Source of the DNA: Oligoflexia bacterium
Lineage (GTDB): Bacteria > Bdellovibrionota > UBA1018
NCBI GenBank assembly: GCA_023701205.1
Contig: JAMPXJ010000001.1
Coordinates: forward strand, 186,001-250,000
Direction of reading: 5' to 3'
Length of the DNA: 64,000 nt
Shown here: piece by piece, positions 24,328 through 58,835 of the stretch
How positions within the stretch are numbered: the first letter of the stretch is position 1
Layout of the letters: each line of letters opens with the position of its first letter
Notes under the pieces: model-generated
Database searches by the model: none
What the model was told of the DNA's origin: nothing
The model's input: only the letters and a program-made list of their open reading frames with translations
Translations under genes and position numbers: made by a program

Positions 24328-24948
24328 TCAGTCCAGCGTCGAATAGTATCTTTGCACCGAAACCACCTTGCCCTGGATCAGGTTCTCGGAGCCTGGACCC
24401 AGCTCGATCGGCGAGAAGCGCGGGTTCGCGGGAAGAAGCCGGATGCGGCCGCGCTTTTTCTCCAGAAATTTGACGGTCGCCTCGCCATCGATCAAGGCGA
24501 CGACGATCTCGCCGTTCTGGGCGTCCTCCTGTTTGCGAACGATGACGTAATCCCCGTCCAGGATTCCGGCTTCGATCATGCTCTCGCCTTTCACTTTGAG
24601 CGCGAAGAGCGGACCCTTGAGGCGTGAAGGCGCGGCGAGCGAGCCGTGCGCCGACTCGATCGCCTCGAGCGGATGTCCCGCCGGCACTGCACCCAGGATC
24701 GGTACGTCCGTGGACTCGCTCCGATGCGAAAGCTGCAGGCCGCGCGCGACGCCTGGCTCCTTCCGCAGATAGCCTTTGCGGATCAGGGCGCGGACATGGT
24801 CCTGCACGGTTCCGACCGCCTCGTAGCCGCAGCTTCGGGCGATATCCCGGTAGGTGGGCGGGCGGCCTTCGCGGGTGATCCCCTCCTGGATGACTCGGAG
24901 GACTTCGGCTTGTTTTGCGGATAATTTCCCATCGCCGCTTTGATCCAT
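24328..24948 (-). CDS. lexA: LexA repressor
   Basis: A 206-residue SOS repressor. The N-terminal winged HTH is KQAEVLRVIQEGITREGRPPTYRDIARSCGY (split about residues 9-40). The self-cleavage site is the Ala-Gly bond in GAVPAGHPLEA; the catalytic Ser is in VKGESMIEAGILDGDYV and the Lys in GEATVKFLEK. ATG 24948 is chosen because the conserved N-terminus begins there; the start codon lies inside a 14-bp palindrome shared with imuA, so it should repress both itself and the mutagenesis cassette. Confidence 0.96.
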   Translation of the reverse strand: MDQSGDGKLSAKQAEVLRVIQEGITREGRPPTYRDIARSCGYEAVGTVQDHVRALIRKGYLRKEPGVARGLQLSHRSESTDVPILGAVPAGHPLEAIESAHGSLAAPSRLKGPLFALKVKGESMIEAGILDGDYVIVRKQEDAQNGEIVVALIDGEATVKFLEKKRGRIRLLPANPRFSPIELGPGSENLIQGKVVSVQRYYSTLD

Positions 24949-24959
24949 ACAAGTGTATG
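24946..24959. promoter_or_regulatory. probable LexA operator (14-bp palindrome)
   Basis: CATACAAGTGTATG: half-sites CATACA and TGTATG with a 2-bp centre. It covers the lexA start codon and sits 17 bases before the imuA ATG, immediately upstream of a TATACT -10 box (24961-24966). It is not the E. coli CTGT-N8-ACAG box. LexA binding is inferred from position and symmetry. Confidence 0.6.
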
Positions 24960-24960
24960 G

Positions 24961-24966
24961 TATACT
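24961..24966 (+). promoter_or_regulatory. -10 box of the imuA-imuB-dnaE2 promoter
   Basis: TATACT, 10 bases before the imuA ATG at 24977, gives a leader of only about 4 nt. The palindrome occupies the -10/-35 spacer, a good position for repression. Confidence 0.45.
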
Positions 24967-24976
24967 CGTGGACAGC

Positions 24977-25501
24977 ATGGATGGCAACTTGTTTCACTCG
25001 AATTTGCAGTCTCTTTCGACCCAAGTCGAGCGGGGGGCGCTCAGCGAGCTCAGTGGCCCGCGTGGCGAGGGGAAAACCCTGGCCGCGCTCCATTATCTTG
25101 CCGGCAGCCCCGGACGCATCGCCTGGATCGAGCGTGCGCTCACGATTTATCCTTGCGCCCTGGCGCAGCGGGACGTGGCGCTCGAACGCGTGCTTTTCGT
25201 CGAGGCCGGCGCGCCGGAGGGGCTGCTCTGGGCCGCGCAGCAGGTGCTCGCAAGCCAGGTCTTCGGAAGCGTCGTGCTCGACCTCGGCGCGCCGCTCGAG
25301 GACGCGGTCTGCCTGCGCCGGCTGCAGCTCGCGGCTGAGAAATCCCAGGCCGCGGTGCTCCTGCTTTCGGAGCGGGCGACGCGGGAGAGCTGGCCGCTGC
25401 GATTCCAGGCCCGGGTCGAGGGTCACGAGATCAGGATTTTGAAATCCCGGCAGGGGCGGGCCCAGAGAGGAACTGAATGGCTTCAGAGAAGTCCCGCGTA
25501 G
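24977..25501 (+). CDS. imuA: ImuA, RecA-like accessory factor of translesion synthesis
   Basis: A short RecA-like protein (174 residues; many ImuA are 200-270). A Walker A-like loop SGPRGEGKT lies near residue 35, and the rest follows a RecA-type beta-alpha pattern (FGSVVLDLGAPLEDAVCLRRLQLAAEKSQAAVLLLSE). ImuA acts with ImuB and DnaE2 in SOS mutagenesis. ATG 24977 is favoured; an in-frame start at 24953 would lie within the operator. It overlaps imuB by 25 bases, and the family assignment rests partly on this context. Confidence 0.85.
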   Translation: MDGNLFHSNLQSLSTQVERGALSELSGPRGEGKTLAALHYLAGSPGRIAWIERALTIYPCALAQRDVALERVLFVEAGAPEGLLWAAQQVLASQVFGSVVLDLGAPLEDAVCLRRLQLAAEKSQAAVLLLSERATRESWPLRFQARVEGHEIRILKSRQGRAQRGTEWLQRSPA

Positions 25502-26862
25502 TCTGCGTGCTCTTTCCGGCGGCGACCGGTGCGAAATCCCTTCGCGCCTTCGCGGAGGCGTCGCTGCGCTTCACGCCGCTGGTCGCGCTGCGGACGGAGG
25601 AGCGCGCGGTTTTTCTCGAGATCTCCGCTTGCGGACGGCTTTATACGGAGGATGGCCTGAGGGCACGGTTGCTCGCGCTCGCGCGGAGGCTCGCGCCCTC
25701 GGCCGGGCCCGGCGCGCCCTGCCGCGTGGTCATCGCGCGCGATGCGGCGACCGCGCTCGCGCTCGCGCGGTTCGATCCGCGCTGCGGCGCGGATCCCGAG
25801 GCCTGGCGCGCGCTTCCGCTTCAGGCGCTTCGGGGCTTTGCCGGCGCGGGTCCCGATACGTCCGGTACGGCCAGTCAGGATCACGAAAAGAGCGTCGAGC
25901 GGATCATCTCTCTTTTGAAGGTCCTGGGCATCCGCAATCTCGGGGAGTTCGCGCTGCTGCCTTCGGCGAGCCTCGCCGCGCGGCTCGGCAAAGAAGCCAT
26001 CGAGCTCAGCGCGCGCGTGCAGGGAAAGCTGCCGCAGGCCTGGGAAGGCTTTCACCCGGAACCCGCGATCATCGAGCGGGCGCAGGAGAGCGCCGAGAAT
26101 CTCGAGGCGATCCTCTTCGTCCTGAAGGGCGTGCTCGATCGCGCGATGGCCCGGCTGCGCGGGCGCGGGGAGCGGGTGCTCGCGCTCGAGGCGCGGCTGG
26201 AGCTCGAGAGCTGGTCCGTCGCCGCGGAGGCGTGGAGGCGCGCTTTCGGGATCGTGTTCCCGCTCCCGCAGGGCTCCGCCGCGGGGATCATCCCGATCCT
26301 GCGCGATCGGCTCGCGCATGAGCTCGCGCGCGCGCCGCTCGGGGCGCCGGTCGAGGCGCTCGAGGTGGAGATCCGTGAGACCGCGCCGGGGCGGGGCGCG
26401 CAGCGGGATTTCTTCTCGAAAAAAGAAGAGGAGGACGAGGCGGTCGAGAGCCTCATGGCCCGGCTCGCGCAGAAGTTCGGCGAGCGCAATGTCTTCGTCG
26501 CGCGGCCCGTGGACCGGTATCTTCCCGAGAAAGCCTACGAGCGAACGCTTCAGGTCGCCTCCGTGACCGACGCAGGGGAGGGCAGCGTGCGAGCGCTGCC
26601 CTCGCCCGAGCGGCCCACGCGGCTCCTGGGGGCGCCCGAGCGGCTCGTCGCGCGCGGCAATCTCCTGCAGCTGCCGCTCAACGGAAAGCATTGGCGAATC
26701 CGGGGCTGGGAAGGGCCCGAGCGTCTCTCGGGCGAGTGGTGGAAGGAAGGTTTCGATCGCGACTACTATCGCGTGGCGACCGAAAACGGCGAGCGCCTCT
26801 GGATCTTCCAGGAGCGCGGGCGCGACGAGGCCCCGCTTTACCTGCACGGTTTTTTCGATTGA
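25477..26862 (+). CDS. imuB: ImuB, Y-family polymerase-like mutasome protein
   Basis: A 461-residue Y-family polymerase homologue that lacks the catalytic acidic N-terminus: the first strand reads VVCVLFPAATG, not the D-x-D/FASVE type of active polymerases. It is expected to be a scaffold linking ImuA, the beta clamp and DnaE2. Recognisable segments are ALRTEERAVFLEISACGRLY, a helix-hairpin-like VLGIRNLGEFALLPSASLAARLG and the characteristic C-terminal RLWIFQERG...LYLHGFFD. AGAGGAACTG precedes the ATG, inside the imuA 3' end; 11 bases separate its stop from dnaE2. Confidence 0.93.
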   Translation: MASEKSRVVCVLFPAATGAKSLRAFAEASLRFTPLVALRTEERAVFLEISACGRLYTEDGLRARLLALARRLAPSAGPGAPCRVVIARDAATALALARFDPRCGADPEAWRALPLQALRGFAGAGPDTSGTASQDHEKSVERIISLLKVLGIRNLGEFALLPSASLAARLGKEAIELSARVQGKLPQAWEGFHPEPAIIERAQESAENLEAILFVLKGVLDRAMARLRGRGERVLALEARLELESWSVAAEAWRRAFGIVFPLPQGSAAGIIPILRDRLAHELARAPLGAPVEALEVEIRETAPGRGAQRDFFSKKEEEDEAVESLMARLAQKFGERNVFVARPVDRYLPEKAYERTLQVASVTDAGEGSVRALPSPERPTRLLGAPERLVARGNLLQLPLNGKHWRIRGWEGPERLSGEWWKEGFDRDYYRVATENGERLWIFQERGRDEAPLYLHGFFD

Positions 26863-26873
26863 AAGGGGGATCG

Positions 26874-29800
26874 TTGCGCTACGCCGAGCTGCAGTGCCGC
26901 ACGCATTACTCCTTCCTTCGCGGGGCCTCGCATCCCGAGGAGCTCGTCGAGCGCGCGGCCGAGCTGGGGCTCGCGGGAATCGCGATCACGGATCTCGACG
27001 GCGTGTACGGCATTCCCAAGGCTTACGCCGCCGCGAAGCGGTTTCCGCAGCTCAAGCTGATCGTGGGCTCGGAGCTCACGGTCCTGCATCCGACCCTGCC
27101 GAAGGCGGGCTGGGGCCTGGGCCTGCTTGCGCTCGATCGCGCGGGTTACGGGCTTTTGTGCCGGCTCATCACCGCGAGCCGTGCCGATAAGCCCAAAGGC
27201 GAGGCGGGGCTCGGGTGGGAGGAGCTGCTCACGCTGCTCGGGCGCCCGGAGTCCCGGGGGCTCGTCGCGATTCCCCGCGTTTCGCTCGAGGAGGAGATTC
27301 CCAAGGGATTCTACGCGGAGCTGAAGCCATTCTTTCCGGAAAGGCTTTTCCTCCCGGTCTCCCGTTTTCTCGACGGGCTCGATGCCGCGCGGGTCGCGGG
27401 TTCCGTGAGGCTCGCGCGGGAGCTCGGGCTCCCGCTGCTCGCGACGAATGACGTGCATTATCACGCTCCCGAGCGGCGCGCGCTCCAGGACGCGCTCACG
27501 GCCACGCGCCATCTCTGTCCGCTCGAGGAGTCGGGCCGGCGCCTCTTCTCCAACGGCGAACGCTACCTCAAGGCGCCCGCGCGCATGGCGGAGCTTTTTG
27601 CCGATTTTCCGGAAGCTCTCGAGAATACGGCTCGCATCGCCGAGCTCTGCCGATTCTCCCCTTCGGAGCTGCGTTATCGCTATCCTTCGGAGTGGATCCC
27701 GCGCGGCGAGACGGCGCAAAGCCATCTCGCGAGCCTGACCTGGGAAGGCGCCGGGCGCCGTTACGCGGGCGAGGTGCCGCCGGACGTGCGCCGGCAGCTC
27801 GAGCATGAGCTCCGGCTCGTCGAGGAGCTGGGCTTCGCCGATTATTTCCTCACGATCTGGGAGATCGTGGAATTCGCCCGTTCCCGCGACATCCTCTGCC
27901 AGGGGCGCGGCTCGGCCGCGAACTCGGCGATCTGCTATTGCCTGGGGATCACCGCGGTCGATCCGGTGCGGATGCGGCTGCTCTTCGAGCGTTTCCTCTC
28001 GGCCGAGCGGGGGGAGCCGCCGGACATCGACGTGGACTTCGAGCACGAGCGCCGCGAGGAGGTGATCCAGCACGTCTACGAGAAGTACGGGCGCGACCGC
28101 GCGGGCATGGTCTCGGCGATCATCACCTACCGGACGAAGTCCGTGAAGCGCGATCTGGCGAAGGCGCTCGGACTCGGGCCCGAGGAGGTCCCCGAGGAAT
28201 CCGGGAAGTCCGCGCTTTTCGCGAAGCTCGCCGAGGAGCTCAAGGGCTTTCCGCGGCATCTGTCGATCCATTCCGGCGGGTTCACTCTTTCGGCCGATCC
28301 CCTCATCGAGACCGTGCCCATCGAGCCCGCGCGGATGGAAGGCCGCACGATCGTCCAGTGGGACAAGGAGGATCTCGCGGTGATCGGGCTTCTCAAGGTC
28401 GATCTCCTGGCGCTCGGGATGCTCTCGGCGTTGCACAAGACGCTCGACCTGGTCAATGCCCGCCCAAAAGCCGGAAAAACGGGCCACGCGAGCCCGGCCG
28501 CGCTTGCGGACGAGGCGGCGCCGGGACGAAAGCTCACGCTCGCGACGATCCCGGCCGAGGACGCACGCACCTACGAGATGATCCGGCGGGCGGATACGGT
28601 GGGGGTCTTCCAGATCGAGTCGCGCGCGCAGATGAGCATGCTCCCGCGCCTGCTGCCGCGCACGTTCTACGATCTCGTCGTGCAGGTGGCGATCGTGCGG
28701 CCGGGACCGATCGTGGGCCAGATGGTGCATCCGTTTTTGCGCCGGCGCCGGGGGGAGGAGCCGATCCACTACCCGCATCCCGCGCTCGAGCCGATCCTGG
28801 GCCGCACCCTGGGCGTCCCGCTCTTCCAGGAGCAGGTGATGAAGATCGCGATCGTGCTCGCGGGCTTCACCCCCGGCGAGGCGGATGAGCTCCGACGCGC
28901 GATCGGGGCGTGGCGTTCCACCGGTAGTATTGAAAAAATGGGGCGGCGCCTGATGGACGGGCTTCTGGCCTGCGGGCTCCCGCTCGAATGGGTGGAGCGG
29001 GTCTTTCTTCAGATCCAGGGTTTCGCCGAGTACGGCTTCCCCGAGTCCCATGCCGCGTCGTTCGCCCTCCTGGCGTATGCGTCGTCCTATCTGAAGTGCC
29101 ATTACCCGGCGGAGTTCGCCTGCGCGCTCCTGAACTCCCAGCCCATGGGTTTTTATTCCCCGCACACGATCATCGAGGACGCAAGACGGCACGGCGTGCG
29201 CGTTCTGCCTGTCGATCCCAACCGTTCGGACTGGGACTGCACGCTCGGCAAGGATGGGCTTCGCGTCGGGCTGCGCGTGGTGCGGGGCTTTGGCGAGGCG
29301 GCCGCACGGCGGCTGATCGCGGAGCGTGAACGGCGCCCCTTCGCAAGCCTCGGGGATTTCTTCGCGCGCGCGCGCCTGGGCTTCGAAGTGCTTCAGAATC
29401 TCGCGCTCGGGGGCGCGTTCTCGGGCTTCGGCTTCACGCAACGCGAGGCGCTTTGGGAGCTTCTGGCCTGCCATGCGCCCCAGGGAGACCAGCTCGAGCT
29501 CTTCGCGGACGCGGGACGCGCGGGAGCGGGCGCAGGCGCCGCTGCCGAAGCCGCCTTTCCGCGACTGGACGAATACCAGGCGATTCAGGCGGAATACCGT
29601 TCGTACGGGCTTTCGACCCGAGGGCACCCGATGGGCGCGCTTCGAAGGATTTTGCGCGGAAGGATTCCTCCCGCAACCACCCTGGCCGCCAGGAAGGAGG
29701 CTCTCCGTCATGAAAATGGCAGGGGCTTCCGCCTGGCGGGCCTGGTGATCGTCCGGCAGCGTCCGCCCACGGCCAAAGGAACGGTCTTCGCCACGCTCGA

Positions 29801-30005
29801 GGACGATGCGGGTTTCCTGGATCTGATTCTTCATCGCGATACTTACGAGAGGTATGGCGAGGTGTTTAATGACGCGCCTTTCGTGATCGTCTCCGGAAAT
29901 CTTCAGCGGGACGGCGAGGCGATCAATCTCATCGTGAGGCGCGCCGAGCGATTGGACCTTTCCGTTTTGGGAGAGCTGACTGTCTCATCACGGGATTATC
30001 ATTGA
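26874..30005 (+). CDS. dnaE2: error-prone DNA polymerase DnaE2
   Basis: A C-family polymerase of 1043 residues, the normal DnaE2 length. Order: PHP domain (AELQCRTHYSFLRGASHPEEL, ITDLDGVYG, LLATNDVHYH), palm with the catalytic acidic triad region PDIDVDFEHERREEV (about 383-395), fingers (RPGPIVGQMVHPFLRRR), helix-hairpin-helix region, and a C-terminal OB fold (GLVIVRQRPPTAKGTVFATLEDD). The start is TTG 26874, preceded by AAAGGGGGA at 4 bases; no ATG or GTG lies nearby in frame. It is the polymerase of SOS-induced mutagenesis together with ImuA and ImuB. Confidence 0.96.
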   Translation: MRYAELQCRTHYSFLRGASHPEELVERAAELGLAGIAITDLDGVYGIPKAYAAAKRFPQLKLIVGSELTVLHPTLPKAGWGLGLLALDRAGYGLLCRLITASRADKPKGEAGLGWEELLTLLGRPESRGLVAIPRVSLEEEIPKGFYAELKPFFPERLFLPVSRFLDGLDAARVAGSVRLARELGLPLLATNDVHYHAPERRALQDALTATRHLCPLEESGRRLFSNGERYLKAPARMAELFADFPEALENTARIAELCRFSPSELRYRYPSEWIPRGETAQSHLASLTWEGAGRRYAGEVPPDVRRQLEHELRLVEELGFADYFLTIWEIVEFARSRDILCQGRGSAANSAICYCLGITAVDPVRMRLLFERFLSAERGEPPDIDVDFEHERREEVIQHVYEKYGRDRAGMVSAIITYRTKSVKRDLAKALGLGPEEVPEESGKSALFAKLAEELKGFPRHLSIHSGGFTLSADPLIETVPIEPARMEGRTIVQWDKEDLAVIGLLKVDLLALGMLSALHKTLDLVNARPKAGKTGHASPAALADEAAPGRKLTLATIPAEDARTYEMIRRADTVGVFQIESRAQMSMLPRLLPRTFYDLVVQVAIVRPGPIVGQMVHPFLRRRRGEEPIHYPHPALEPILGRTLGVPLFQEQVMKIAIVLAGFTPGEADELRRAIGAWRSTGSIEKMGRRLMDGLLACGLPLEWVERVFLQIQGFAEYGFPESHAASFALLAYASSYLKCHYPAEFACALLNSQPMGFYSPHTIIEDARRHGVRVLPVDPNRSDWDCTLGKDGLRVGLRVVRGFGEAAARRLIAERERRPFASLGDFFARARLGFEVLQNLALGGAFSGFGFTQREALWELLACHAPQGDQLELFADAGRAGAGAGAAAEAAFPRLDEYQAIQAEYRSYGLSTRGHPMGALRRILRGRIPPATTLAARKEALRHENGRGFRLAGLVIVRQRPPTAKGTVFATLEDDAGFLDLILHRDTYERYGEVFNDAPFVIVSGNLQRDGEAINLIVRRAERLDLSVLGELTVSSRDYH

Positions 30006-30332: not shown

Positions 30333-31256
30333 GTGAAAAAATACGTACTTTTGCCGGTGTTTTGCTTGCTGGCAGCGGGAGCTCTGCTCCTTCCGGGCGC
30401 GGCTTTGGCCGCCGACGAGCCCCAGAGCTGCGCCAAGTGCCACGAGGACGAGGTCGCGGGCTTCAAGGGCAGTCATCACGTGCGCGCCTGGTCTTCGAAG
30501 GAAGACCAGGCCAAGAACTCCTGCTCCACCTGTCACGGGGACGGAGCGGAGCACATCAAGGCCGAAGGCAAGGCCCCGATGCCGATCCCGATGAAAGGGA
30601 AGAACATCGATGCGGCCAAGGCGAACGACTCTTGCCTGAAGTGCCATAATCAGACCGGCAATCTCGCGTTCTGGGGCGCTGGCAAGCACGGAAAGAACGA
30701 CCTGACCTGCGCCAGCTGCCACAGCATGCATGGCAAGGGCACGGTCAAGCCGGGCCCAGATGTCTGCTTCACCTGCCATAAGGACGTGAAGCACGACTCG
30801 ATGAAGCTCTCGCATCACCCGATCATCGAGGGCAAGGTTTCGTGCAGCGACTGCCACAACCCGCACGGCACGCTGAACCACGGGATGTTGCGCGCGGAGA
30901 GCACGAACCAGCTCTGCTACAAGTGTCACACCGACAAGCGCGGCCCGTATGTGTGGGAACACCCGCCCGTCGAGGAGAACTGCCTGAGCTGCCACGTCTC
31001 GCACGGCAGCCGCAACCAGAAGCTCCTGGTCGAGAAGACCCCGAACCTCTGCCAGAACTGCCACGAGTGGTCGCGCCATCCCAGCACGGCCTACCAGGGC
31101 AATGGTGGCTTCGAGAACGTGAAGACCAGCACCTTCAAATCGCAGCTCGCGGCGCGGTCGTGCCAGAACTGCCATCCGAAAATCCACGGAAGCTTCGCTC
31201 CGCATAACCCGGCCAGCGGTCGTGGTTATAACGGCGGCAAGTACTTCGTCCGGTAA
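30333..31256 (+). CDS. decaheme c-type cytochrome, DmsE/MtrA family
   Basis: A 307-residue periplasmic cytochrome with a signal peptide (about 1-25, ending ALA-AD) and ten CXXCH sites (CAKCH, CSTCH, CLKCH, CASCH, CFTCH, CSDCH, CYKCH, CLSCH, CQNCH, CQNCH), the number and spacing of DmsE/MtrA proteins. Such proteins thread an MtrB-type porin and carry electrons across the outer membrane. Start GTG 30333 is 6 bases after GAGGAG. The porin gene follows by 17 bases, and cytochrome maturation genes come soon after. Confidence 0.95.
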   Translation: MKKYVLLPVFCLLAAGALLLPGAALAADEPQSCAKCHEDEVAGFKGSHHVRAWSSKEDQAKNSCSTCHGDGAEHIKAEGKAPMPIPMKGKNIDAAKANDSCLKCHNQTGNLAFWGAGKHGKNDLTCASCHSMHGKGTVKPGPDVCFTCHKDVKHDSMKLSHHPIIEGKVSCSDCHNPHGTLNHGMLRAESTNQLCYKCHTDKRGPYVWEHPPVEENCLSCHVSHGSRNQKLLVEKTPNLCQNCHEWSRHPSTAYQGNGGFENVKTSTFKSQLAARSCQNCHPKIHGSFAPHNPASGRGYNGGKYFVR

Positions 31257-31273
31257 CAGAGGAGAATGATTCG

Positions 31274-33436
31274 ATGAGAAATCTCAAATATCTTACGGGA
31301 ATCGCTCTTCTGGCGTCGACAGGCGCCTGGGCGGAGACGGAGTACAGCGCGAATGCCGGCGTGGGCCTGAGGCTCTCGAAAGGCGACGAGGTCAGCGCGC
31401 GCTTCACGGAATACCAGGATTTGAGTTCGGGCGTCGTCTCGAACCTCGAGGCCGCGTATTTCGACGGTGCTTACCACATGCAGCTGTTCGCGCAGAACAT
31501 TGGCCGAAACGATCAGGGCTACTCCCTGTCGGGCGGACGCTATCACCAGTTCACCTACAAGGCCTGGTTCGATGAGCTGCCGCATAACCTGTCGTTCAAC
31601 AGCCTGCAGTTCTATACGAGCGGACTGGGCACTAACACGCTGACCTATACGGCGGCGGGAGCGGGCGGGGCGACCTCGACGACGTTCCTCGATACGAACG
31701 TGTCTGACATGAGCAAGTGGCTCCCGCACGACTACAAACTCGAGCGGAAGGACCTCGGCGCCAGCGTGCTCATCTCGATGGACACGCCGTTCTTCGGGGA
31801 TCTCTCGGTGAGCCGTGTTTCGATGACGGGAACGCGTCCGATCGCGACCGCGAGCGGCGTCTATCCCACGGGCGGCGGTACCTCCGGATTCGCGCCGTTC
31901 GAGTTCCCCGAGCCAGTGGATCAGAACACGACCACGACGAACCTCGAAGCGGGCTACAAGACCGACATGGTTTATCTGTCGGCCACGGGCACGCTGAGCA
32001 AGTTCAACTCGGAGTGGGATTATCTCACCTTCCGCAACCCGATGGTCGGCACGACCGAGCTGAACGAGAAGCTCTCGCTCAGCCCTGACAGCGACTCCAA
32101 GAAGCTGGCGGTGCAGGCAACGGTCTACAAGCTGCCGTTCGATTCGACCTTCCAGGCGCGGGGAAGCACGGAGGAGATCACCAATACGATCCCGTTGGAG
32201 ACCTCACTCGCACCGGGCGGAACGGGTACTTACACTCCCGTGACCCTGGGCGTGAACGAACCGGACTTCAAAGGCGACATCAGCTACAAGAACGCTTCAG
32301 CGGTCTGGAGTGCCCGGCCTTTCGAGCACCTCGATGCGGATGTCTTCTATCGCTTCCTCGACAAGAAGAACCATTCGACCAAGGTCATCTACTCGGATTC
32401 GCCGACGGCCCCCACGGCCACGCAGGCCAACGAGCACTTCGGTTACCGCAAGAACAACATCGGCGGCGAGCTGGGGTACCTCTTCCCGGCGCGGACGAAG
32501 GTTCGCGGCGGGTACGAGTATGAGGCCCGGGTGCGCGAGGAGCGGACGGACGCGAACGCGAGCTTCGAGAAGTCGCTCTTCGCGGAGGTGAAGAACTCGT
32601 TCTTCGACTTCGCGACGGCCAAGGTGAAGTACGGCTATCTCCGCCGGACCTCCGAGTGGGGCAAGGCCGAGACCGCCGGCACCACCAAGACGGCCACGTC
32701 GTACGTGCTGAACTTCGTACGTCGCTTCGACGTCAACGAGAAGCGCCAGAACAGCATTCTGGCCGCGGTCACGCTGACGCCGATGGATGATGTCGATCTC
32801 GGCGTGGGCTATCGATGGAAGAAGAGCGTCTATGACCAGACCCAGATCGGTCTGCAGGACGACTTCGGCCGCGAGTGGAACTTCGACGCGAGCTTCCGCC
32901 TGCCCGAGGTCTTCAAGATCACGGCGTTCGCGGACATCGAGAAGGTCAATCGTCACGCGTTCCACCGGCAGTTCACCAACGCTCCGGATCCGTTCGGCGC
33001 GACCCAGAACACGACGAACTTCAACTTCGACGAGACCTGGACCGACAACAACTACCGGTACGGCTTGATCCTGCAGGTCCCGGTGATCGAGGATCTGCTG
33101 GACTTCGAAACCTCCTATGCACAGGAAGTGGCGAACGCCTTCGCGGATCTCGAAGCCCAGACAGGCGGCCCGACCCTCGTGGATATCCAGAACTTTGGAA
33201 ATTATCGCAAGAACAGCCTGAGCGCGAAGTTCAGCTACAAGGTGAACGAGAGCCTCTCGGCCGCTTTGGCGGGCTTTTGGGAACGGCTGCGGAGCGATGA
33301 CGTCCAGTTCAACCAGTATGTCTACAACGGGGTGGCGGGCTCCAATGGCGCGCAGCGGTTCCTTTTCACCGGCGCGTACAAGGACAACGAGTACTCCGCG
33401 ACTACCGGCGTAGTTACGGTTTCTTACAAGTTCTGA
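31274..33436 (+). CDS. MtrB/PioB-family outer-membrane porin
   Basis: A 720-residue outer-membrane beta-barrel with a signal peptide ending GAWA-ET and long alternating strands through to a C-terminal aromatic (VSYKF). Segments such as NAGVGLRLSKGDEVSARFTEYQDL and LERKDLGASVLISMDTPFFGDLSVSR are typical of the MtrB/PioB sheath that encloses a decaheme cytochrome. There is no N-terminal CXXC pair as in Shewanella MtrB. The AGAGGAG site precedes ATG. A strong terminator follows, so the cytochrome and porin form a two-gene unit. Confidence 0.92.
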   Translation: MRNLKYLTGIALLASTGAWAETEYSANAGVGLRLSKGDEVSARFTEYQDLSSGVVSNLEAAYFDGAYHMQLFAQNIGRNDQGYSLSGGRYHQFTYKAWFDELPHNLSFNSLQFYTSGLGTNTLTYTAAGAGGATSTTFLDTNVSDMSKWLPHDYKLERKDLGASVLISMDTPFFGDLSVSRVSMTGTRPIATASGVYPTGGGTSGFAPFEFPEPVDQNTTTTNLEAGYKTDMVYLSATGTLSKFNSEWDYLTFRNPMVGTTELNEKLSLSPDSDSKKLAVQATVYKLPFDSTFQARGSTEEITNTIPLETSLAPGGTGTYTPVTLGVNEPDFKGDISYKNASAVWSARPFEHLDADVFYRFLDKKNHSTKVIYSDSPTAPTATQANEHFGYRKNNIGGELGYLFPARTKVRGGYEYEARVREERTDANASFEKSLFAEVKNSFFDFATAKVKYGYLRRTSEWGKAETAGTTKTATSYVLNFVRRFDVNEKRQNSILAAVTLTPMDDVDLGVGYRWKKSVYDQTQIGLQDDFGREWNFDASFRLPEVFKITAFADIEKVNRHAFHRQFTNAPDPFGATQNTTNFNFDETWTDNNYRYGLILQVPVIEDLLDFETSYAQEVANAFADLEAQTGGPTLVDIQNFGNYRKNSLSAKFSYKVNESLSAALAGFWERLRSDDVQFNQYVYNGVAGSNGAQRFLFTGAYKDNEYSATTGVVTVSYKF

Positions 33437-33480
33437 TCGGTTCGGCCCGGGCCCCCTGGGTTCGGGGTGAATCACTCGGG

Positions 33481-33506
33481 AAAGGGGGCGGCAACGCCCC
33501 CTTTTT
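33481..33506 (+). terminator. rho-independent terminator
   Basis: Stem AAAGGGGGCG / CGCCCCCTTT with loop GCAA, continuing into TTTTT. It closes the cytochrome-porin unit. Confidence 0.92.
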
Positions 33507-33631
33507 CGTTTATGGCATAAAAAACTGTCAAAAACGTCGTTTTCACGTTGGCCCCCGAGAGATCTTGAGCTAGCTTGTGTTCCGGATTTATGGTTTTATG
33601 CGCCCAATCATCAGCATTCGGGAGTGACTTC

Positions 33632-34234
33632 ATGAAACGATTTCCTGCCTTGTTTTTTCTCTCGCTAGCCCTTGTTTTCTGCCTTTTTTCCTGCACCCGC
33701 AATGATCTGAAAATCGAAACGTATCAGACCGAAAAGCAGCCGGTCGTATCCAACGAGTCGATGACTCAGCAGATGATGTCGCCGCAGGGCGGAATGCCTG
33801 AGCAAGTTTCGGCTCCCGCTTCGCAGGAGCCGTCCGCTTATGGCTGGGACATCCCCAAAGGCTGGGGCTCGGAGCCCGGCTCTTCGATGCGCCTCGTGAG
33901 CTTCAAGGCGGATGGGCATACCGGCTCGATCATCGTGCTCGAAGGCGAGGCCGGCGGCCTGGTCGCGAACGTGAACCGCTGGCGCGAACAGGTGGGGCTT
34001 CCCGCGCAGGACGAGGCCGCCGTGCTCAAGGCCGCGCGCAAAGGCAAGAGCGCGCTGGGCGAGTTCAGGTGGTTCGAGATCGTGAACGACTCGTCACCCG
34101 GGCAGTCGATGCTCGTCGCCGTGGTCCCGGCCGACGGCAAGACGCTTTTCGTGAAACTCATGGCGCCCAAAGCCGCGTTGCAGAAGAATCAGGAGAAGTT
34201 TCTCTCCCTGTGCAGGTCCCTGCGGCGGGCGTAA
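33632..34234 (+). CDS. lipoprotein of unknown function in the cytochrome locus
   Basis: A 200-residue lipoprotein (lipobox LFSC, Cys about 20). After a Gln/Pro/Ser-rich spacer (to about residue 65), the domain begins YGWDIPKGWGSEPGSSMRLVSF and contains GGLVANVNRWREQVGLPAQDE and a C-terminal KFLSLCRSLR. Proteins with this WDIP..W / NVNRWR pattern occur as uncharacterised envelope proteins in several phyla. Position 40 bases before resB suggests one transcript with the cytochrome maturation genes. GGGAG precedes ATG 33632. Confidence 0.7.
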   Translation: MKRFPALFFLSLALVFCLFSCTRNDLKIETYQTEKQPVVSNESMTQQMMSPQGGMPEQVSAPASQEPSAYGWDIPKGWGSEPGSSMRLVSFKADGHTGSIIVLEGEAGGLVANVNRWREQVGLPAQDEAAVLKAARKGKSALGEFRWFEIVNDSSPGQSMLVAVVPADGKTLFVKLMAPKAALQKNQEKFLSLCRSLRRA

Positions 34235-34274
34235 GCCAGCCGTCGCTCATCCTTAGCAAAAGGAGTTCGCCACC

Positions 34275-35414
34275 ATGATCCCCCTTCCGGAGAAAGCAAA
34301 AAAGTACGTCCTCTTCCTGGCCAAGACCGAGATCTTCACCTTCGCGGTCTTCTGGCTGATGTGCCTGACGGTGGCGGGCACGCTCGCGCAGCGTTCGATG
34401 GGCCTGTTCCGGGCGCAGGAGCTGTTCTTCTCCTCGTTCATCTACTGGGTCGGGTACATCCCGCTCCCCGGCGGCTACACGACGATGGGCGTGATCTTCA
34501 TCGGCCTTCTCATCAAGCTGCTCTTTGACAGCACGCTGAAGAACGGCAAGCTCGGCATCTGGATCACGCACGTGGGCGCTCTCCTGCTGCTGCTCGGGGG
34601 GTTCCTGACCGCGGCCTTCAGCCAGGAAGGCGCGATGGTGATCCCGCCCAACCAGACGGTCAACTTCGTGAACGACTACCACAAGCTCGAGCTCGCCGTG
34701 ACCGACACCTCGCCGGCGGATCACGACCAGGTGACCGCCTTCGGCGCCGGTTGGCTCAAGCCGGGTTCGGTGATGAAGGCGCCCGTTCTTCCTTTCGAGA
34801 TCGAGGTGGTGCGGTATTTCAAGAACGTGCGGTTTGACCGGCGCAACGGCATGATCGCGGCCGCGCCGGATCTCCGGGGCTTCGCCGCGAACTTCGAGCT
34901 GCGGGGTGCGCCCGAGGCGAAAGAGGCCGAGCAGAACCAGGCCGGAGCGCTCCTCCGCATCCGCGGCGCGGGCGCGGGCAAGGACGGCACCTACGCACTC
35001 TTCGAGGAGATGCCGGTCCGGCAGACCCTGGAGGCCAATGGCAAGACCTACGCGCTGGATCTGCGCCGCGCGCGCACGATCCTGCCGTTCAAGCTCCATC
35101 TCATCCAATTCGAGAAGAAGATGCATCCCGGAACCGGGATGGCCAAGAGCTACAAGTCAGTGGTCACGCTCCAGGACGGCGGGATCTCCCAGCGGGCTTT
35201 GATCCAGATGAACGAGCCGCTCCGTCATCGCGGCTACACCTTCTACCAGTCCTCCTTCATCGAGCATCCCGCGGGCGACACGACGGTTCTCGCCGTCGTG
35301 AAGAACGCCGGCCGGACGTTTCCCTATATCTCGAGCATCATCATGTGCATCGGGCTGCTGGTTCACCTCATGATCCAGGCGCCCAAGCTCATCCGCAACC
35401 GGCAGGGAGAATGA
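34275..35414 (+). CDS. resB: cytochrome c biogenesis protein ResB (CcsB)
   Basis: A 379-residue membrane protein of the system II cytochrome c maturation pathway. Transmembrane segments lie at about 15-37 (TEIFTFAVFWLMCLTVAGTLA), 60-92 and 97-117, with a large periplasmic beta domain (about 120-345) and a final helix (ISSIIMCIGLLVHLMIQ). In the C-terminal part, LRHRGYTFYQSSFIEHP is a typical ResB motif. It works with CcsA/ResC to hand heme to apocytochromes in the periplasm. AGGAG precedes ATG 34275, and ccsA starts one base after its stop. Confidence 0.93.
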   Translation: MIPLPEKAKKYVLFLAKTEIFTFAVFWLMCLTVAGTLAQRSMGLFRAQELFFSSFIYWVGYIPLPGGYTTMGVIFIGLLIKLLFDSTLKNGKLGIWITHVGALLLLLGGFLTAAFSQEGAMVIPPNQTVNFVNDYHKLELAVTDTSPADHDQVTAFGAGWLKPGSVMKAPVLPFEIEVVRYFKNVRFDRRNGMIAAAPDLRGFAANFELRGAPEAKEAEQNQAGALLRIRGAGAGKDGTYALFEEMPVRQTLEANGKTYALDLRRARTILPFKLHLIQFEKKMHPGTGMAKSYKSVVTLQDGGISQRALIQMNEPLRHRGYTFYQSSFIEHPAGDTTVLAVVKNAGRTFPYISSIIMCIGLLVHLMIQAPKLIRNRQGE

Positions 35415-35415
35415 C

Positions 35416-37314
35416 ATGAAACGTTTACTGAGTTCCATCCTTCTGCTTTCCAGCGTCGTCGCGGCGGCGAGCCCTACGCCGGATTTCACGTTCAAGGAGC
35501 TGGGCCTGGTGCCGATGCTCCACGAGGGCCGGATCAAGCCGCTGGACACCTTCGCGCGCATTCATCTCCTGGCCTTTTACGGCCGGAGCAAGCTGCCGGA
35601 TCAGAGCGCGATGCAGTGGCTGGCAGAGCTGCTTTTCGACGAGTCGCGGGCGTATGATCGGCGGGTTTTCAACGTGTCGGATTACGCGGTGGTCGAGGCG
35701 CTGGGCCTGGAGCGCACCGAAGGCCACAAATATTCGTTCTACGAGCTGACCCAGGGATTCCAATCGCAGGCGGAGACTTTCTCGCAGCTCCTGAACAAGA
35801 AGGAAGAGGAGCGCACTTCGGTCCAGAACCACATGGTCGAGGTGTACGAGAAGTACCTTCGTTATCTGGAGATCAGCCGCTCGTTCTCGGTCTTCCTGCC
35901 CCAGTTCGAGGTTTCCTCGCCGAAGCTCGCGCTGGCGCTGACGGTGCAGCCGGGGGAGCGGCTGAGCTTCCGGGATCTCATGAAGCGCAAGCAGTTCGAG
36001 GAGGGAATCCGCCGCCTGGTGACCTCCAAGGGCGCCGGACTCACGGATGACGAGAAACGGGAACTCGCGGAGCTTTCCATCCGGTACGATCGCGCCCAGC
36101 GCGATGTCCAGACGGAGATCTTCCGGATCATCCCGCCGCAGTGGCAGCATGCCTCGGATCTCTGGCTTGCGCCCACAGCATTGATGGGTTCGGGTCTCGG
36201 CTCGCCCGAAAGCACGCAGTACCTGAATCTGTGGAAAGGCCTGTACGAGGCCTATCATTCGGGCGACGGGCGGAAGTGGAACGAGACGAGCGCCCGGATC
36301 CTCGTCGAGTCGCAGCAGCACGCGGCGAAGGTCATTAGCCCCTGGAAGATCCGCCTCGAGAACGCTTATAACCGTTTCGACTTCTTCACCTACAGCCTGG
36401 CGCTGTACATCGCTTCCTTCCTGGCGCTCGCTTTCAGCTGGATGATCTGGCCGCAGGCGCTGGCGCGCTGGAGCTTCGGGCTTCTCGCGGCAGGGGGCGT
36501 ATTCCATCTGGCCGGAATGGTCATGAGGGTGGTTATCATGGGGCGCCCACCGGTGGCGACGCTCTACGAGTCGATCATCTTCGTGGGCCTCACGGCGGTG
36601 GTGTTCGGCCTGGTCCTGGAACGGATGCGCCGCAACGGCCTGGGCACGCTGATCGGCGCGGTGTCGGGCGCGATCCTGCAGTTCATGGGCACCCGGTACG
36701 AGACCTCGGGCGATACCATGGGCATGCTGGTGGCGGTGCTGAACACCAACTTCTGGCTGGCCACTCACGTGGTCACGATCACGATCGGCTACGGCTCCTG
36801 CTTCGTCGGCGGGGTGCTCGGGCATGTCTATCTGCTGTCCCGCATCTTCAAGCCCAAGGATCAGGCGAAAGCGGACGAGGTGAGCCGCAACATCGTCGGC
36901 GTGAGCCTGGTTTCGCTTTTCTTCACGATGTTCGGGACGATCCTGGGCGGGATCTGGGCGGACCAGTCCTGGGGCCGCTTCTGGGGCTGGGATCCCAAGG
37001 AAAACGGCGCGCTCTGGATCGTGCTGTGGCTGCTTTTCCTGCTCCATGCGCGCCTTTGCGGGATCGTCGGCAAGATCGGCATGGCCGTCGGCATGGTGCT
37101 CACGAACGTGATCGTGGCGCTGGCCTGGTTCGGCGTGAACCTCCTGAACGTGGGCCTGCACTCGTACGGCTTCACTTCGAACATCGCCACGAATCTCGCG
37201 CTATTCTGCGGGGCGGAGATCCTGTTCTCGATCGTGACCTATGCAATGGCGAAGCAGAAAGAACAGCTTCTGGACAAGGATGAATCGCTCCGGAAAGGGA
37301 TCGTCCAAACCTGA
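35416..37314 (+). CDS. ccsA: cytochrome c biogenesis protein CcsA/ResC
   Basis: A 632-residue heme-handling membrane protein. An N-terminal hydrophobic signal/anchor is followed by an unusually long periplasmic domain (about 25-315), then eight or so transmembrane helices (from YSLALYIASFLALAFSWMIW). The tryptophan-rich heme-binding WWD motif is WGRFWGWDPKENGALW (about residues 518-533); conserved His residues lie in flanking helices (NFWLATHVVTI, LLNVGLHSYG). Together with ResB it attaches heme to CXXCH sites, here very probably those of the neighbouring cytochromes. A long hairpin covers the stop codon. Confidence 0.94.
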   Translation: MKRLLSSILLLSSVVAAASPTPDFTFKELGLVPMLHEGRIKPLDTFARIHLLAFYGRSKLPDQSAMQWLAELLFDESRAYDRRVFNVSDYAVVEALGLERTEGHKYSFYELTQGFQSQAETFSQLLNKKEEERTSVQNHMVEVYEKYLRYLEISRSFSVFLPQFEVSSPKLALALTVQPGERLSFRDLMKRKQFEEGIRRLVTSKGAGLTDDEKRELAELSIRYDRAQRDVQTEIFRIIPPQWQHASDLWLAPTALMGSGLGSPESTQYLNLWKGLYEAYHSGDGRKWNETSARILVESQQHAAKVISPWKIRLENAYNRFDFFTYSLALYIASFLALAFSWMIWPQALARWSFGLLAAGGVFHLAGMVMRVVIMGRPPVATLYESIIFVGLTAVVFGLVLERMRRNGLGTLIGAVSGAILQFMGTRYETSGDTMGMLVAVLNTNFWLATHVVTITIGYGSCFVGGVLGHVYLLSRIFKPKDQAKADEVSRNIVGVSLVSLFFTMFGTILGGIWADQSWGRFWGWDPKENGALWIVLWLLFLLHARLCGIVGKIGMAVGMVLTNVIVALAWFGVNLLNVGLHSYGFTSNIATNLALFCGAEILFSIVTYAMAKQKEQLLDKDESLRKGIVQT

Positions 37315-37327
37315 TCCCTTTCCGGAG
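37288..37327 (+). terminator. 15-bp perfect hairpin over the ccsA stop codon
   Basis: CTCCGGAAAGGGATC (37288-37302) pairs perfectly with GATCCCTTTCCGGAG (37313-37327) around a 10-base loop. There is no T-run, but it lies between convergent operons; it could terminate or protect both mRNA ends. Confidence 0.6.
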
Positions 37328-37349
37328 GGTTAAATCGGGGTTCCGACAG

Positions 37350-37586
37350 TCAGAGAGGGCGTTTTTTCAGGACGTTCTCGAGGTCGCTTGAGATCTCCTT
37401 GGACTCGCGCAGGAGCTGCACGAGCCAGAGGGCGACCGCGGCCAGGATGAAGAGCATCCCGAAGGTGAACGCCGCCGCGATTCCCAACGGGCTGTGCATG
37501 CTGCCGGCGATGACGAGCAGGAACAGTCCGATGAACTGCAGGGCCAGGATCTGGATGACGTGACTGGGTGGATATTTATTGCTCAT
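37350..37586 (-). CDS. small two-helix membrane protein
   Basis: A 78-residue protein with two transmembrane helices (VIQILALQFIGLFLLVIAGSM and GIAAAFTFGMLFILAAVALWLV) and a charged C-terminal tail (LLRESKEISSDLENVLKKRPL). It follows the tetraheme cytochrome gene by 15 bases on the same strand, so it may be an accessory of that quinol-oxidising module. Family unknown; conservation next to napC-type genes would support it. Confidence 0.6.
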   Translation of the reverse strand: MSNKYPPSHVIQILALQFIGLFLLVIAGSMHSPLGIAAAFTFGMLFILAAVALWLVQLLRESKEISSDLENVLKKRPL

Positions 37587-37601
37587 GGTCGGTCTCCGTT
37601 C

Positions 37602-38267
37602 TCATTCGTCCGCCGACGGCTTCGCGCCCTCGGCTGAAGGTGAAGCGACGGTCTCAGGCTCTTCCGCGTCCTCGGCGGCCTCCCGCACTCCGTGCGCGAT
37701 GTCATGGCAACCGGCGACGAGGCAGCCTTTTTCGCCGCTCAGGATCTTCTCGAGGTAGCCGGGCTCCTTGTTGTGGTTTTTCTTCGCGCGGAACCGCTTG
37801 GACTCCGCGTGGCAGTAGAGGCAGTTGTTCACGTCATAAGGCTTGTAGGTCTTGATCTCCTCGGGTTTGGGCGGCGTCGTGAAGTAATAGACCCAGAGGT
37901 GCTTGAGGCCGCTGAGCTTGGCCCGCACGCCGCCGAAGAGATCGTAATCGGTATGGCAGGTGTAACAGGCCTTTTCCTTGGGGACGTAGTTGTTCGCCCA
38001 GTGGACCGCGGCGACGATCTCCTCGTCCTCGGACTTGAGGCTATCACCGTGCTTTTCCATCGTGTGGCAGCGCAGGCAGAAGTCGACGTTTTTCATCGAC
38101 TCGATCGTATGGACGTTGGCCGGAACGGCTCCGAGAACGGGAAAGATCACTACGATCAGGCCGATCATCAGGCGCCGGGTGATTCGGCCGAAGCTGTGCC
38201 AGCCGAAGATCAGCATTGAGATCAGCAGCAGGTCCGCCGCGAGAATGAACCAAAGGAGTATGCTCAT
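37602..38267 (-). CDS. NapC/NrfH-type membrane-anchored tetraheme cytochrome
   Basis: A 221-residue cytochrome with two hydrophobic N-terminal stretches (about 2-21 and 30-52) and a periplasmic heme domain. Heme sites are CLRCH, CYTCH, CLYCH and CLVAGCH, the last being CX4CH where the family normally has CX2CH. NapC/NrfH/CymA proteins oxidise menaquinol and pass electrons to periplasmic partners; here the decaheme conduit converging on this operon is the obvious candidate. The C-terminal about 35 residues are Glu/Ala/Pro-rich and probably disordered. AAGGA is present 8 bases before the ATG. Confidence 0.85.
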   Translation of the reverse strand: MSILLWFILAADLLLISMLIFGWHSFGRITRRLMIGLIVVIFPVLGAVPANVHTIESMKNVDFCLRCHTMEKHGDSLKSEDEEIVAAVHWANNYVPKEKACYTCHTDYDLFGGVRAKLSGLKHLWVYYFTTPPKPEEIKTYKPYDVNNCLYCHAESKRFRAKKNHNKEPGYLEKILSGEKGCLVAGCHDIAHGVREAAEDAEEPETVASPSAEGAKPSADE

Positions 38268-38281
38268 GGAAGGGTTCCTTT

Positions 38282-38314
38282 AAAAAAGGGCCGGCGGAGG
38301 TTCCCGCCAGCCCT
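38282..38314 (-). terminator. hairpin with T-run on the minus strand
   Basis: GGGCCGGCGG pairs with the CCCGCCAGCCC arm (one mismatch); on the minus strand it is followed by six T residues (A-run 38282-38287). It lies between the monoheme cytochrome and the tetraheme cytochrome gene, so read-through here would set the ratio of the two products. Confidence 0.75.
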
Positions 38315-38326
38315 TCGTTTTAACGC

Positions 38327-38728
38327 TTATTTGCCTTTCTTTTCCGATTTTTCCGGCTTGGTCTTGAGAGTCTCGAGCCAGGTGGTGATCGTCTCGAGCT
38401 CGGACTTGGAACCCTTGAACCGCTTGCGGTGCTCCTTGCCTTCCTTCTTGACGCTCTTCTTCAGATACTTGCGCATCCAGGCGGCGTCGTGCTCCAGCCC
38501 GGCTCCGGAGAGATCCGGCGGCTCCTTTTCGTCCTTGTCCTTCTCGTCTTTTTTCTCCGAGGCGGAGAGCTTCACTCCGAGCGAGTTGATGGTGTGGCAC
38601 TCGTCGCAGTGCTGCGCCTTGAAGATCTTCAATCCTTCGGGCTCCTCCGCGCCGGCCAGGCCGGGTGCCGCCAGGCTCGCCGCGAGGACGAGCGAGAGCG
38701 ATATGATCAGTTGGGGTCGAATCGACAT
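38327..38728 (-). CDS. periplasmic monoheme c-type cytochrome
   Basis: A 133-residue protein with a signal peptide ending LAGA-EE and one heme site CDECH. A Lys/Glu/Asp-rich insert (about residues 60-78) is followed by PPDLSGAGLEHDAAWMRKYL and a C-terminal RFKGSKSELETITTWLETL. The distal Met ligand usual in class I cytochromes is not evident near the C-terminus, where HRKRFKG is found. It may shuttle electrons between the tetraheme and decaheme proteins. GGAG lies before ATG 38728. Confidence 0.85.
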   Translation of the reverse strand: MSIRPQLIISLSLVLAASLAAPGLAGAEEPEGLKIFKAQHCDECHTINSLGVKLSASEKKDEKDKDEKEPPDLSGAGLEHDAAWMRKYLKKSVKKEGKEHRKRFKGSKSELETITTWLETLKTKPEKSEKKGK

Positions 38729-58141: not shown

Positions 58142-58567
58142 ATGTTTCAGACGAAGTCCCAGAGCCCAGCCGGCGGCCGAGTTCCCCTTCAGCGACGGGG
58201 CGCGGCTGCAGTCCCAAGTCCGGCGGGACGCGCCGTCAAGCCGAGGCGCCGGGCGGCCGGCCAAAGCGGACTTCGCAATCCCGAGCGCCTCTTCGCGCTG
58301 CTGGCGGAGACTTTCCAGGCGCTCGGCGATCCCACGCGGGTGCAGATCGTCTGGACGCTCTCGCAGGGCGAGCTTTGCGTCGGCGATCTCGCGCGCAAGG
58401 TCGGGATGAGCCAGCCCGCGGTGAGCCATCATCTGCGCACGCTGCGGAACCTCAAGCTCGTGCGCGTGCGCCGCGACGGGCGCACTTCTTATTACGCTAT
58501 CGACGATGACCATATCGGGCGGCTTCTGAGCGAAGGCATCGAGCATGTGGAGGATCTGATCGGATGA
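58142..58567 (+). CDS. ArsR/SmtB-family metalloregulator
   Basis: A 141-residue winged-helix repressor. After a Pro/Arg-rich N-terminal extension (about 1-48), the domain reads LAETFQALGDPTRVQIVWTL, LCVGDLARKVGMSQPAVSHHL and RDGRTSYYAI. The last helix has DDHIGRLLSEGIEHVED, close to the D-x-H-x10-H-x2-(H/E) zinc site of SmtB/CzrA. It overlaps feoA by ATGA, so it probably controls the ferrous-iron uptake genes, in response to zinc or another metal. The recognition-helix Cys pair of arsenic sensors is absent. Confidence 0.9.
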   Translation: MFQTKSQSPAGGRVPLQRRGAAAVPSPAGRAVKPRRRAAGQSGLRNPERLFALLAETFQALGDPTRVQIVWTLSQGELCVGDLARKVGMSQPAVSHHLRTLRNLKLVRVRRDGRTSYYAIDDDHIGRLLSEGIEHVEDLIG

Positions 58568-58833
58568 AAGCGCCAATCAGCAAGTTGGGGCAACTGAGGA
58601 AGGGACAGGGCGGCCGGATCGTGGCGATCGAAGCCGTCGCGCATCACGAGGAGCTCGCGCAGCGCCTGATGGAAATGGGCCTGCTCGAAGGCTGCAGCGT
58701 GGAGGTGATCCACGAGGCGCCGTTCGGGCGCGATCCGATTGCCGTGCGCGTGCGTGGCGCGCTCGTGGCGCTGCGGCGGAACGAGGCGGATCAGATCACC
58801 GTCGAACTCGACTCCGGTCGGAAGGGCGCCTGA
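58564..58833 (+). CDS. feoA: FeoA, ferrous iron transport accessory protein
   Basis: An 89-residue SH3-like protein with the FeoA pattern LGQLRKGQGGRIVAIE, RLMEMGLLEGCSVEVIHEAPFG (parts) and DPIAVRVRGALVALRRNEA. FeoA is thought to assist FeoB at the membrane. ATGA overlap with arsR upstream; feoB starts 3 bases downstream. Confidence 0.94.
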   Translation: MKAPISKLGQLRKGQGGRIVAIEAVAHHEELAQRLMEMGLLEGCSVEVIHEAPFGRDPIAVRVRGALVALRRNEADQITVELDSGRKGA

Positions 58834-58835
58834 CC

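Follow-up and report, generated by a model that had tools for sequence, protein, structure and literature searches.

A probable MtrAB/MtoAB-type outer-membrane electron conduit beside system II cytochrome c maturation genes in a member of Bdellovibrionota

We analyzed a 64,000-nucleotide stretch of the Oligoflexia bacterium assembly GCA_023701205.1 (contig JAMPXJ010000001.1, positions 186,001 to 250,000; hereafter the window) and focus here on eight genes at positions 30333-38728, which include those for a decaheme cytochrome, an outer-membrane porin, and cytochrome c maturation proteins. The source genome (4.1 Mb, 51 contigs, 94.7% complete) is that of an uncultured relative of the predatory Bdellovibrio and can be assigned to Bdellovibrionota, broadly defined; the phylum is best known for its predators. 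All eight genes named in an earlier interpretation made from the DNA letters alone (the sequence-only reading) were confirmed (Table 1), with family matches far beyond chance (E-values reach 8e-72). They fall into three modules: the decaheme-porin pair; the lipoprotein, ResB, and CcsA; and a quinol-side module of NapC-like tetraheme cytochrome, small transmembrane protein, and monoheme cytochrome, whose genes are convergent with the other five. Since a promoter/terminator scan of the locus gave no promoters, and terminators at chance level, operon boundaries could not be drawn from it. We consider it quite probable that the locus encodes an outer-membrane conduit of the MtrAB/MtoAB type with inner-membrane and periplasmic feeders, and that the cytochrome c maturation genes of the cell adjoin it.

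Table 1. Genes of the conduit locus, with positions in the window
Gene product	Position	Strand	Features
Decaheme cytochrome	30333-31256	+	307 amino acids, 10 CXXCH, TIGR03508
MtrB/PioB outer-membrane porin, 26-stranded	31274-33436	+	PF11854
Lipoprotein of the Ccs module	33632-34234	+	lipobox Cys21
ResB, system II cytochrome c synthetase subunit	34275-35414	+	PF05140
CcsA, system II heme lyase/exporter subunit, N-terminal extension	35416-37314	+	PF01578
Small two-transmembrane-segment membrane protein, NapC-like partner	37350-37586	-	78 amino acids, two hydrophobic segments
NapC/NrfH-like tetraheme inner-membrane cytochrome	37602-38267	-	221 amino acids, PF03264, four heme motifs
Periplasmic monoheme c-type cytochrome	38327-38728	-	PF00034

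Searches by profile, by solved structure, and by fold identify the decaheme and the porin, whose genes are 17 bp apart, as homologs of MtrA and MtrB. The decaheme scores 241.8 bits against TIGR03508 (cut-off 192.2), and a profile search of the PDB matches it to MtrA (6r2q_A, E 1e-53). The porin scores 188.8 bits against PF11854 and misses the stricter NCBIfam model TIGR03509 (175 vs. a cut-off of 240); MtrB (6r2q_B) ranks first in its PDB profile search. Its AlphaFold2 model (predicted local distance difference test, pLDDT, 80) has 26 strands of at least 8 residues, and the top Foldseek match of this model is MtrB 6r2q_B (E 8e-33, template modeling (TM) scores 0.75/0.83), with TonB-dependent receptors next, far behind. 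The pair thus has the features of the MtrAB/MtoAB/PioAB conduits, namely a decaheme of the MtrA/DmsE family and an adjoining 26-strand MtrB/PioB barrel. In a tree of 91 sequences, a quick build supported by the Shimodaira-Hasegawa-like approximate likelihood ratio test (SH-aLRT) only, the window decaheme falls in a clade (SH-aLRT 99) with those of Bdellovibrionota, two betaproteobacterial metagenome-assembled genomes (MAGs), and one Geobacter MAG, and the groups of Sideroxydans and Shewanella branch separately. Because its clade is separate, it is not an ortholog of MtoA, MtrA, or DmsE in the strict sense. Among the 369 Bdellovibrionota genomes that formed our set for profile searches, 13 carry an MtrB-family porin above the family cut-off, so that the trait is patchy in the phylum; decaheme and porin genes are adjacent in every Bdellovibrionota pair found, with or without other cytochromes. 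A porin-like protein (family f23) of genomes G346, G347, and G348 was discounted as MtrB because of its lack of a Pfam match and its weak MtrB profile similarity (67%).

The decaheme lies above the DmsE-family cut-off, and contig C6 of the genome encodes a molybdopterin enzyme resembling TtrA/TtrB together with a triheme protein. One could therefore suppose that the decaheme-porin pair serves an extracellular enzyme of the dimethyl sulfoxide (DMSO) reductase family, as DmsE and DmsF do, and no metal or electrode. This is highly improbable, however: TIGR03508 is a broad model that matches other multihemes too, neither this locus nor the decaheme-porin loci of relatives contain a molybdopterin gene, and the C6 enzyme is unlinked and closer to tetrathionate reductase. 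No DmsA/DmsB molybdoenzyme was recognized among the called window genes around the locus, and the statement of the sequence-only reading that neither a DMSO reductase nor a surface cytochrome is present holds for this stretch. The C6 genes (locus L036, 2082-6379) score far below the curated tetrathionate reductase cut-offs.

On the quinol side, the NapC-like protein matches PF03264 (E 4e-9; 36.9 bits vs. a cut-off of 24.1) and carries three CXXCH motifs and one CX4CH motif. Residues H89, H123, H165, and H192 are conserved in its closest homologs, and the motifs together with the four extra histidines are consistent with four bis-His hemes. Two N-terminal transmembrane segments are predicted, compared with one in NapC, NrfH, and CymA; two are also predicted in the counterparts from G118 (locus L140), the Acidobacteriota genome OFTM328 (L070), and G119 (L167), and one in the copies of G346. 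As judged from its sequence, this tetraheme is probably a quinol dehydrogenase. Profile searches found such proteins in 6 of the 369 Bdellovibrionota genomes and also in one Acidobacteriota genome, and in seven of seven loci the gene adjoins one for a protein of 58-80 amino acids with two predicted transmembrane segments, a neighbor that is rare elsewhere (~300 genes outside the seven loci were checked as background). The small membrane protein noticed in the sequence-only reading is thus real and conserved. Since these small proteins are very divergent in sequence (13-24% identity, one invariant proline), their common descent is drawn mainly from position and topology. The monoheme (PF00034, E 1.2e-4) is 30-47% identical to monohemes beside the decaheme-porin pairs of loci L032, L139, L140, and L070, and has a conserved His100 and no conserved Met. 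Its identification as MtoD was rejected, as a PDB search gave no match to that protein.

Comparison with relatives indicates that the locus is modular, also by the refuting condition that the sequence-only reading had named (separate occurrence of the genes), and that its quinol-side module can be exchanged. A set of five genes does recur: in G118, from a different Bdellovibrionota family than the window organism, the NapC-like protein, small transmembrane protein, decaheme, porin, and monoheme are encoded in this order as one operon, and in OFTM328 the genes of the small transmembrane protein, NapC-like protein, and monoheme are divergent from the decaheme-porin pair. The eight genes are nevertheless not a single unit, as G003 and G006 (the latter from the same family as the window organism) have the decaheme-porin pair with no quinol-side or Ccs genes nearby, and in G018 ResB and CcsA lie ~6 kb from it. 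The expectation that relatives would share the gene order was borne out in part by G001, a congener (assembly 88% complete), which retains the order, both flanks, and the decaheme-porin-lipoprotein-ResB-CcsA genes; its quinol-side module, however, is swapped. In place of the monoheme, NapC-like, and small transmembrane proteins, G001 encodes a 709-amino-acid protein with 13 c-heme motifs, a b-type membrane domain resembling formate dehydrogenase gamma, and ~5 C-terminal transmembrane helices, and a profile search of this assembly gave no NapC-like match. A surface cytochrome was rejected for this protein on the grounds of its C-terminal helices and b-type domain; its sequence features point to the CbcL/MtoC/MtrH kind, known quinone-side partners of MtrAB/MtoAB (PMC6295460), standing exactly where the window has the NapC-like module. 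The window locus itself has no such protein, but one is encoded elsewhere in the genome: on contig C40 (L164, 6414-11286), two membrane proteins are flanked by an octaheme PF11783 cytochrome and a CbcL-like 9-heme protein that has a b-type domain.

Other genomes show further combinations. Within ~11 kb, G346 has both feeder types, monohemes, Ccs genes, a heptaheme, and a diverged barrel-like protein weakly related to MtrB. In a Rhodocyclaceae genome (L050) and in betaproteobacteria (L088 and L101), decahemes are combined with CbcL-like proteins and MtoD-like monohemes. In G119 (L167, 9887-15652), where no decaheme-porin pair accompanies them, the genes of the NapC-like and small transmembrane proteins lie close to those of a molybdopterin oxidoreductase, its probable chaperone-type companion, and a ferredoxin-type subunit, which fits the expectation for a general quinol-side protein. 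A tentative idea, to which we give somewhat less than even weight, is that the NapC-like and small two-helix proteins together make up a two-subunit quinone:cytochrome oxidoreductase not described before. Next to CymA/ImoA and CbcL/MtoC, it would be a third interchangeable inner-membrane plug for MtrAB-type conduits, swapped as a cassette while the locus stays in place. The small protein, which is paired with the tetraheme at each of the loci found, would be a concrete candidate component. The two congeners amount to a natural swap experiment, with the same outer-membrane conduit joined to a NapC-like pair in one and to a CbcL-like plug in the other, and the determinants of potential or direction in wires of this type therefore become testable.

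Both components of system II maturation are present, as ResB (PF05140, E 1.4e-19) and CcsA (PF01578, E 3.9e-21) exceed their family cut-offs. This CcsA is the sole PF01578 protein above cut-off in the assembly and the only full-length CcsA found, so that all c-type cytochromes of the cell are most likely matured with it; the module is probably general rather than dedicated. The accompanying lipoprotein has no Pfam or NCBIfam family. Its lipobox Cys21 is conserved, residues 18-83 are disordered, and the C-terminal domain is ordered; Foldseek matches of the model (PsbP, E 3e-4; DcrB, TM score on the target ~0.5) suggest that this domain resembles PsbP/DcrB, with low TM scores. The lipoprotein belongs with ResB-CcsA: the trio is also found in G001 and in two other Bdellovibrionota genomes, G104 and G295, with no decaheme-porin pair nearby in the latter two (the G295 contig is short). 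That the conduit has its "own" cytochrome maturation, as initially supposed, is thus not upheld.

The neighborhood of maturation and conduit genes may still be meaningful. ResB and CcsA are encoded near decaheme-porin genes in the window genome, G001, G117, and G118, with differing Ccs subtypes. In G346 and G348 they adjoin a comparable pair of multiheme and barrel, CcsA being a fragment in G348. Because the association is seen more than once in the phylum and with different Ccs subtypes, it may be selected, as has been suggested for system I genes beside mtrCAB (PMC8805035). These same neighborhoods, to which the more distant case of G018 may be added, could alternatively mean that the trio is a maturation system dedicated to the conduit, the whole being one functional locus. 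The general system would then in principle be encoded on contig C14 (L147, 444-2148), where a second ResB-like protein is followed by one of 126 amino acids that contains a WSWE motif and matches CcsA below the threshold; the two may be a miniature system II. We kept this alternative in view given the C14 pair and set it aside as the leading explanation given the single full-length CcsA, in an assembly that encodes many other c-type cytochromes. It is improbable also in view of the trio's occurrence away from decaheme-porin genes, and system I genes beside mtrCAB usually have no second copy elsewhere either (PMC8805035).

Based on these findings, we propose a scheme for the conduit. Electrons would be exchanged between the quinone pool and the NapC-like tetraheme, seated beside the small two-helix protein in the membrane, and would pass from the tetraheme through the soluble monoheme to the decaheme. 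The decaheme, sheathed by the 26-strand porin, would carry them across the outer membrane. The partner outside could be a metal or a mineral, some other redox partner, or a multiheme lipoprotein whose gene lies elsewhere in the genome. Heme attachment to the conduit cytochromes, and probably to the cell's remaining c-type cytochromes as well, would fall to ResB, CcsA, and the lipoprotein. The quinol-to-periplasm-to-outer-membrane wiring that had been proposed for this gene set is supported as one of the Mtr/Mto kind, in a cluster without MtrC. The presence of terminal oxidase genes and of a second decaheme-porin-monoheme locus, with an MtoD homolog and a NapC close by (contig C33, see below), also speaks for the scheme.

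Several points weigh against this scheme. The quinone role of the NapC-like protein draws on weak family similarity (PF03264, E 4e-9) and on synteny, and a PDB search with this protein gave no relative. The minus-strand module is convergent here and is not co-transcribed with the plus-strand genes, and the decaheme also scores as a member of the DmsE family, which is compatible with a reductase outside the outer membrane. At the outer end of the wire, no surface cytochrome of the MtrC/OmcA family (TIGR03507) is found above cut-off in the locus or genome-wide. The earlier suggestion of a surface multiheme encoded elsewhere in the genome therefore fails for this family but stands for others, as an 18-heme lipoprotein on contig C44 and a 10-heme lipoprotein on contig C23 are candidates. 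The C44 cluster (57821-64840; L033, 5821-12840) encodes 7-, 2-, 4-, and 11-heme proteins, the last with an NHL repeat, an NrfH-like 6-heme protein, the 18-heme lipoprotein, and a 403-amino-acid protein without a Pfam match that may be a barrel; it is possibly a second, unrelated porin-cytochrome system. On contig C29 (L165, 3590-11180) are several 3-4-heme proteins and a 10-heme protein distantly related to the decaheme.

The direction of flow could also be inward, as in Mto, with electrons from Fe(II) or a mineral passing through porin and decaheme to the monoheme and on to the quinone pool or a terminal oxidase. The gene content agrees with the Mto cluster, which has MtoA, MtoB, monohemes, and the tetraheme ImoA (PMC13390432). 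Elsewhere in the genome, contig C33 carries a second decaheme-porin-monoheme locus (L032), and ~3 kb from it (L032, 6122-7020), beside prepilin-like genes, are an MtoD homolog (PDB 4xxl, E 5e-40) and a NapC that is 57% identical to one in a Sideroxydans mto-like cluster. The genome also has two heme-copper (terminal) oxidases, FeoAB is encoded in the window, and the conserved His of the window monoheme resembles the bis-His MtoD. On the other hand, the features of Mto proper are lacking, the decaheme falling outside the Sideroxydans/MtoA clade and the monoheme having no PDB match to MtoD; no RuBisCO large subunit was found in the assembly, and NapC-like and CbcL-like proteins function in both directions. 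We therefore regard a specifically inward conduit as possible but rather unlikely. Since Mto monohemes of different potential have different roles (PMC13390432), the two monohemes of the two loci in this genome may also differ.

Among known systems, the MtoAB/ImoA/PmcA/MtoD set of Sideroxydans lithotrophicus ES-1 (PMC13390432, PMC4412085) is similar in having a decaheme, an MtrB-type porin, a NapC/NirT tetraheme, monohemes, and no MtrC. The window locus differs from it in the clade of its decaheme, in the Ccs genes alongside, in the extra small two-helix protein, and in its tetraheme, which has two N-terminal helices and a CX4CH motif and is distantly related to the NapC-type homolog. More generally, this tetraheme shares the membrane anchor and the NapC/NirT domain of the NapC/NirT/NrfH proteins but not their single N-terminal transmembrane helix. 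It also differs from ImcH, which has three transmembrane helices, 5-9 CX2CH motifs, and an atypical CX3CH (PMC6295460), in having two such helices, three CXXCH motifs with one CX4CH, and 221 amino acids. Compared with Shewanella MtrCAB (6r2q), the decaheme and the 26-strand porin are homologous by sequence and fold, but MtrC/OmcA is absent from the locus and the quinol-side protein is different. As in Proteobacteria with ccmA-I beside mtrCAB (PMC8805035), maturation genes adjoin a porin-cytochrome locus; those of the window are system II (ResB-CcsA and lipoprotein), not system I.

MtrAB without MtrC is already known, also in Bdellovibrionota: the magnetotactic Bdellovibrionota of Fontaine Goyon, for which iron reduction was proposed, have the same core pair and no MtrC (PMC13200544, 2026). 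As the family of the window organism carries a Bdellovibrionales label, the present locus is probably from a different class (UBA1018), and neither maturation genes nor a quinol-side module are mentioned in the text of that paper. Our analysis thus adds a Bdellovibrionota family, probably of another class than in the 2026 report, to the bacteria that encode extracellular electron wiring. As far as the open-access literature goes, the conserved pair of two-helix tetraheme and small protein, the CbcL-like swap between congeners, and the recurrent system II neighborhood are new.

Two other regions of the window may be mentioned. Directly upstream of the decaheme gene (24328-30005) is a probable SOS mutagenesis cassette, in which two genes that resemble ImuA/ImuB and have no Pfam match lie between those of LexA and a DnaE-type polymerase. 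Further downstream, at 58564-60773, are the genes of the ferrous iron transporter proteins FeoA and FeoB.

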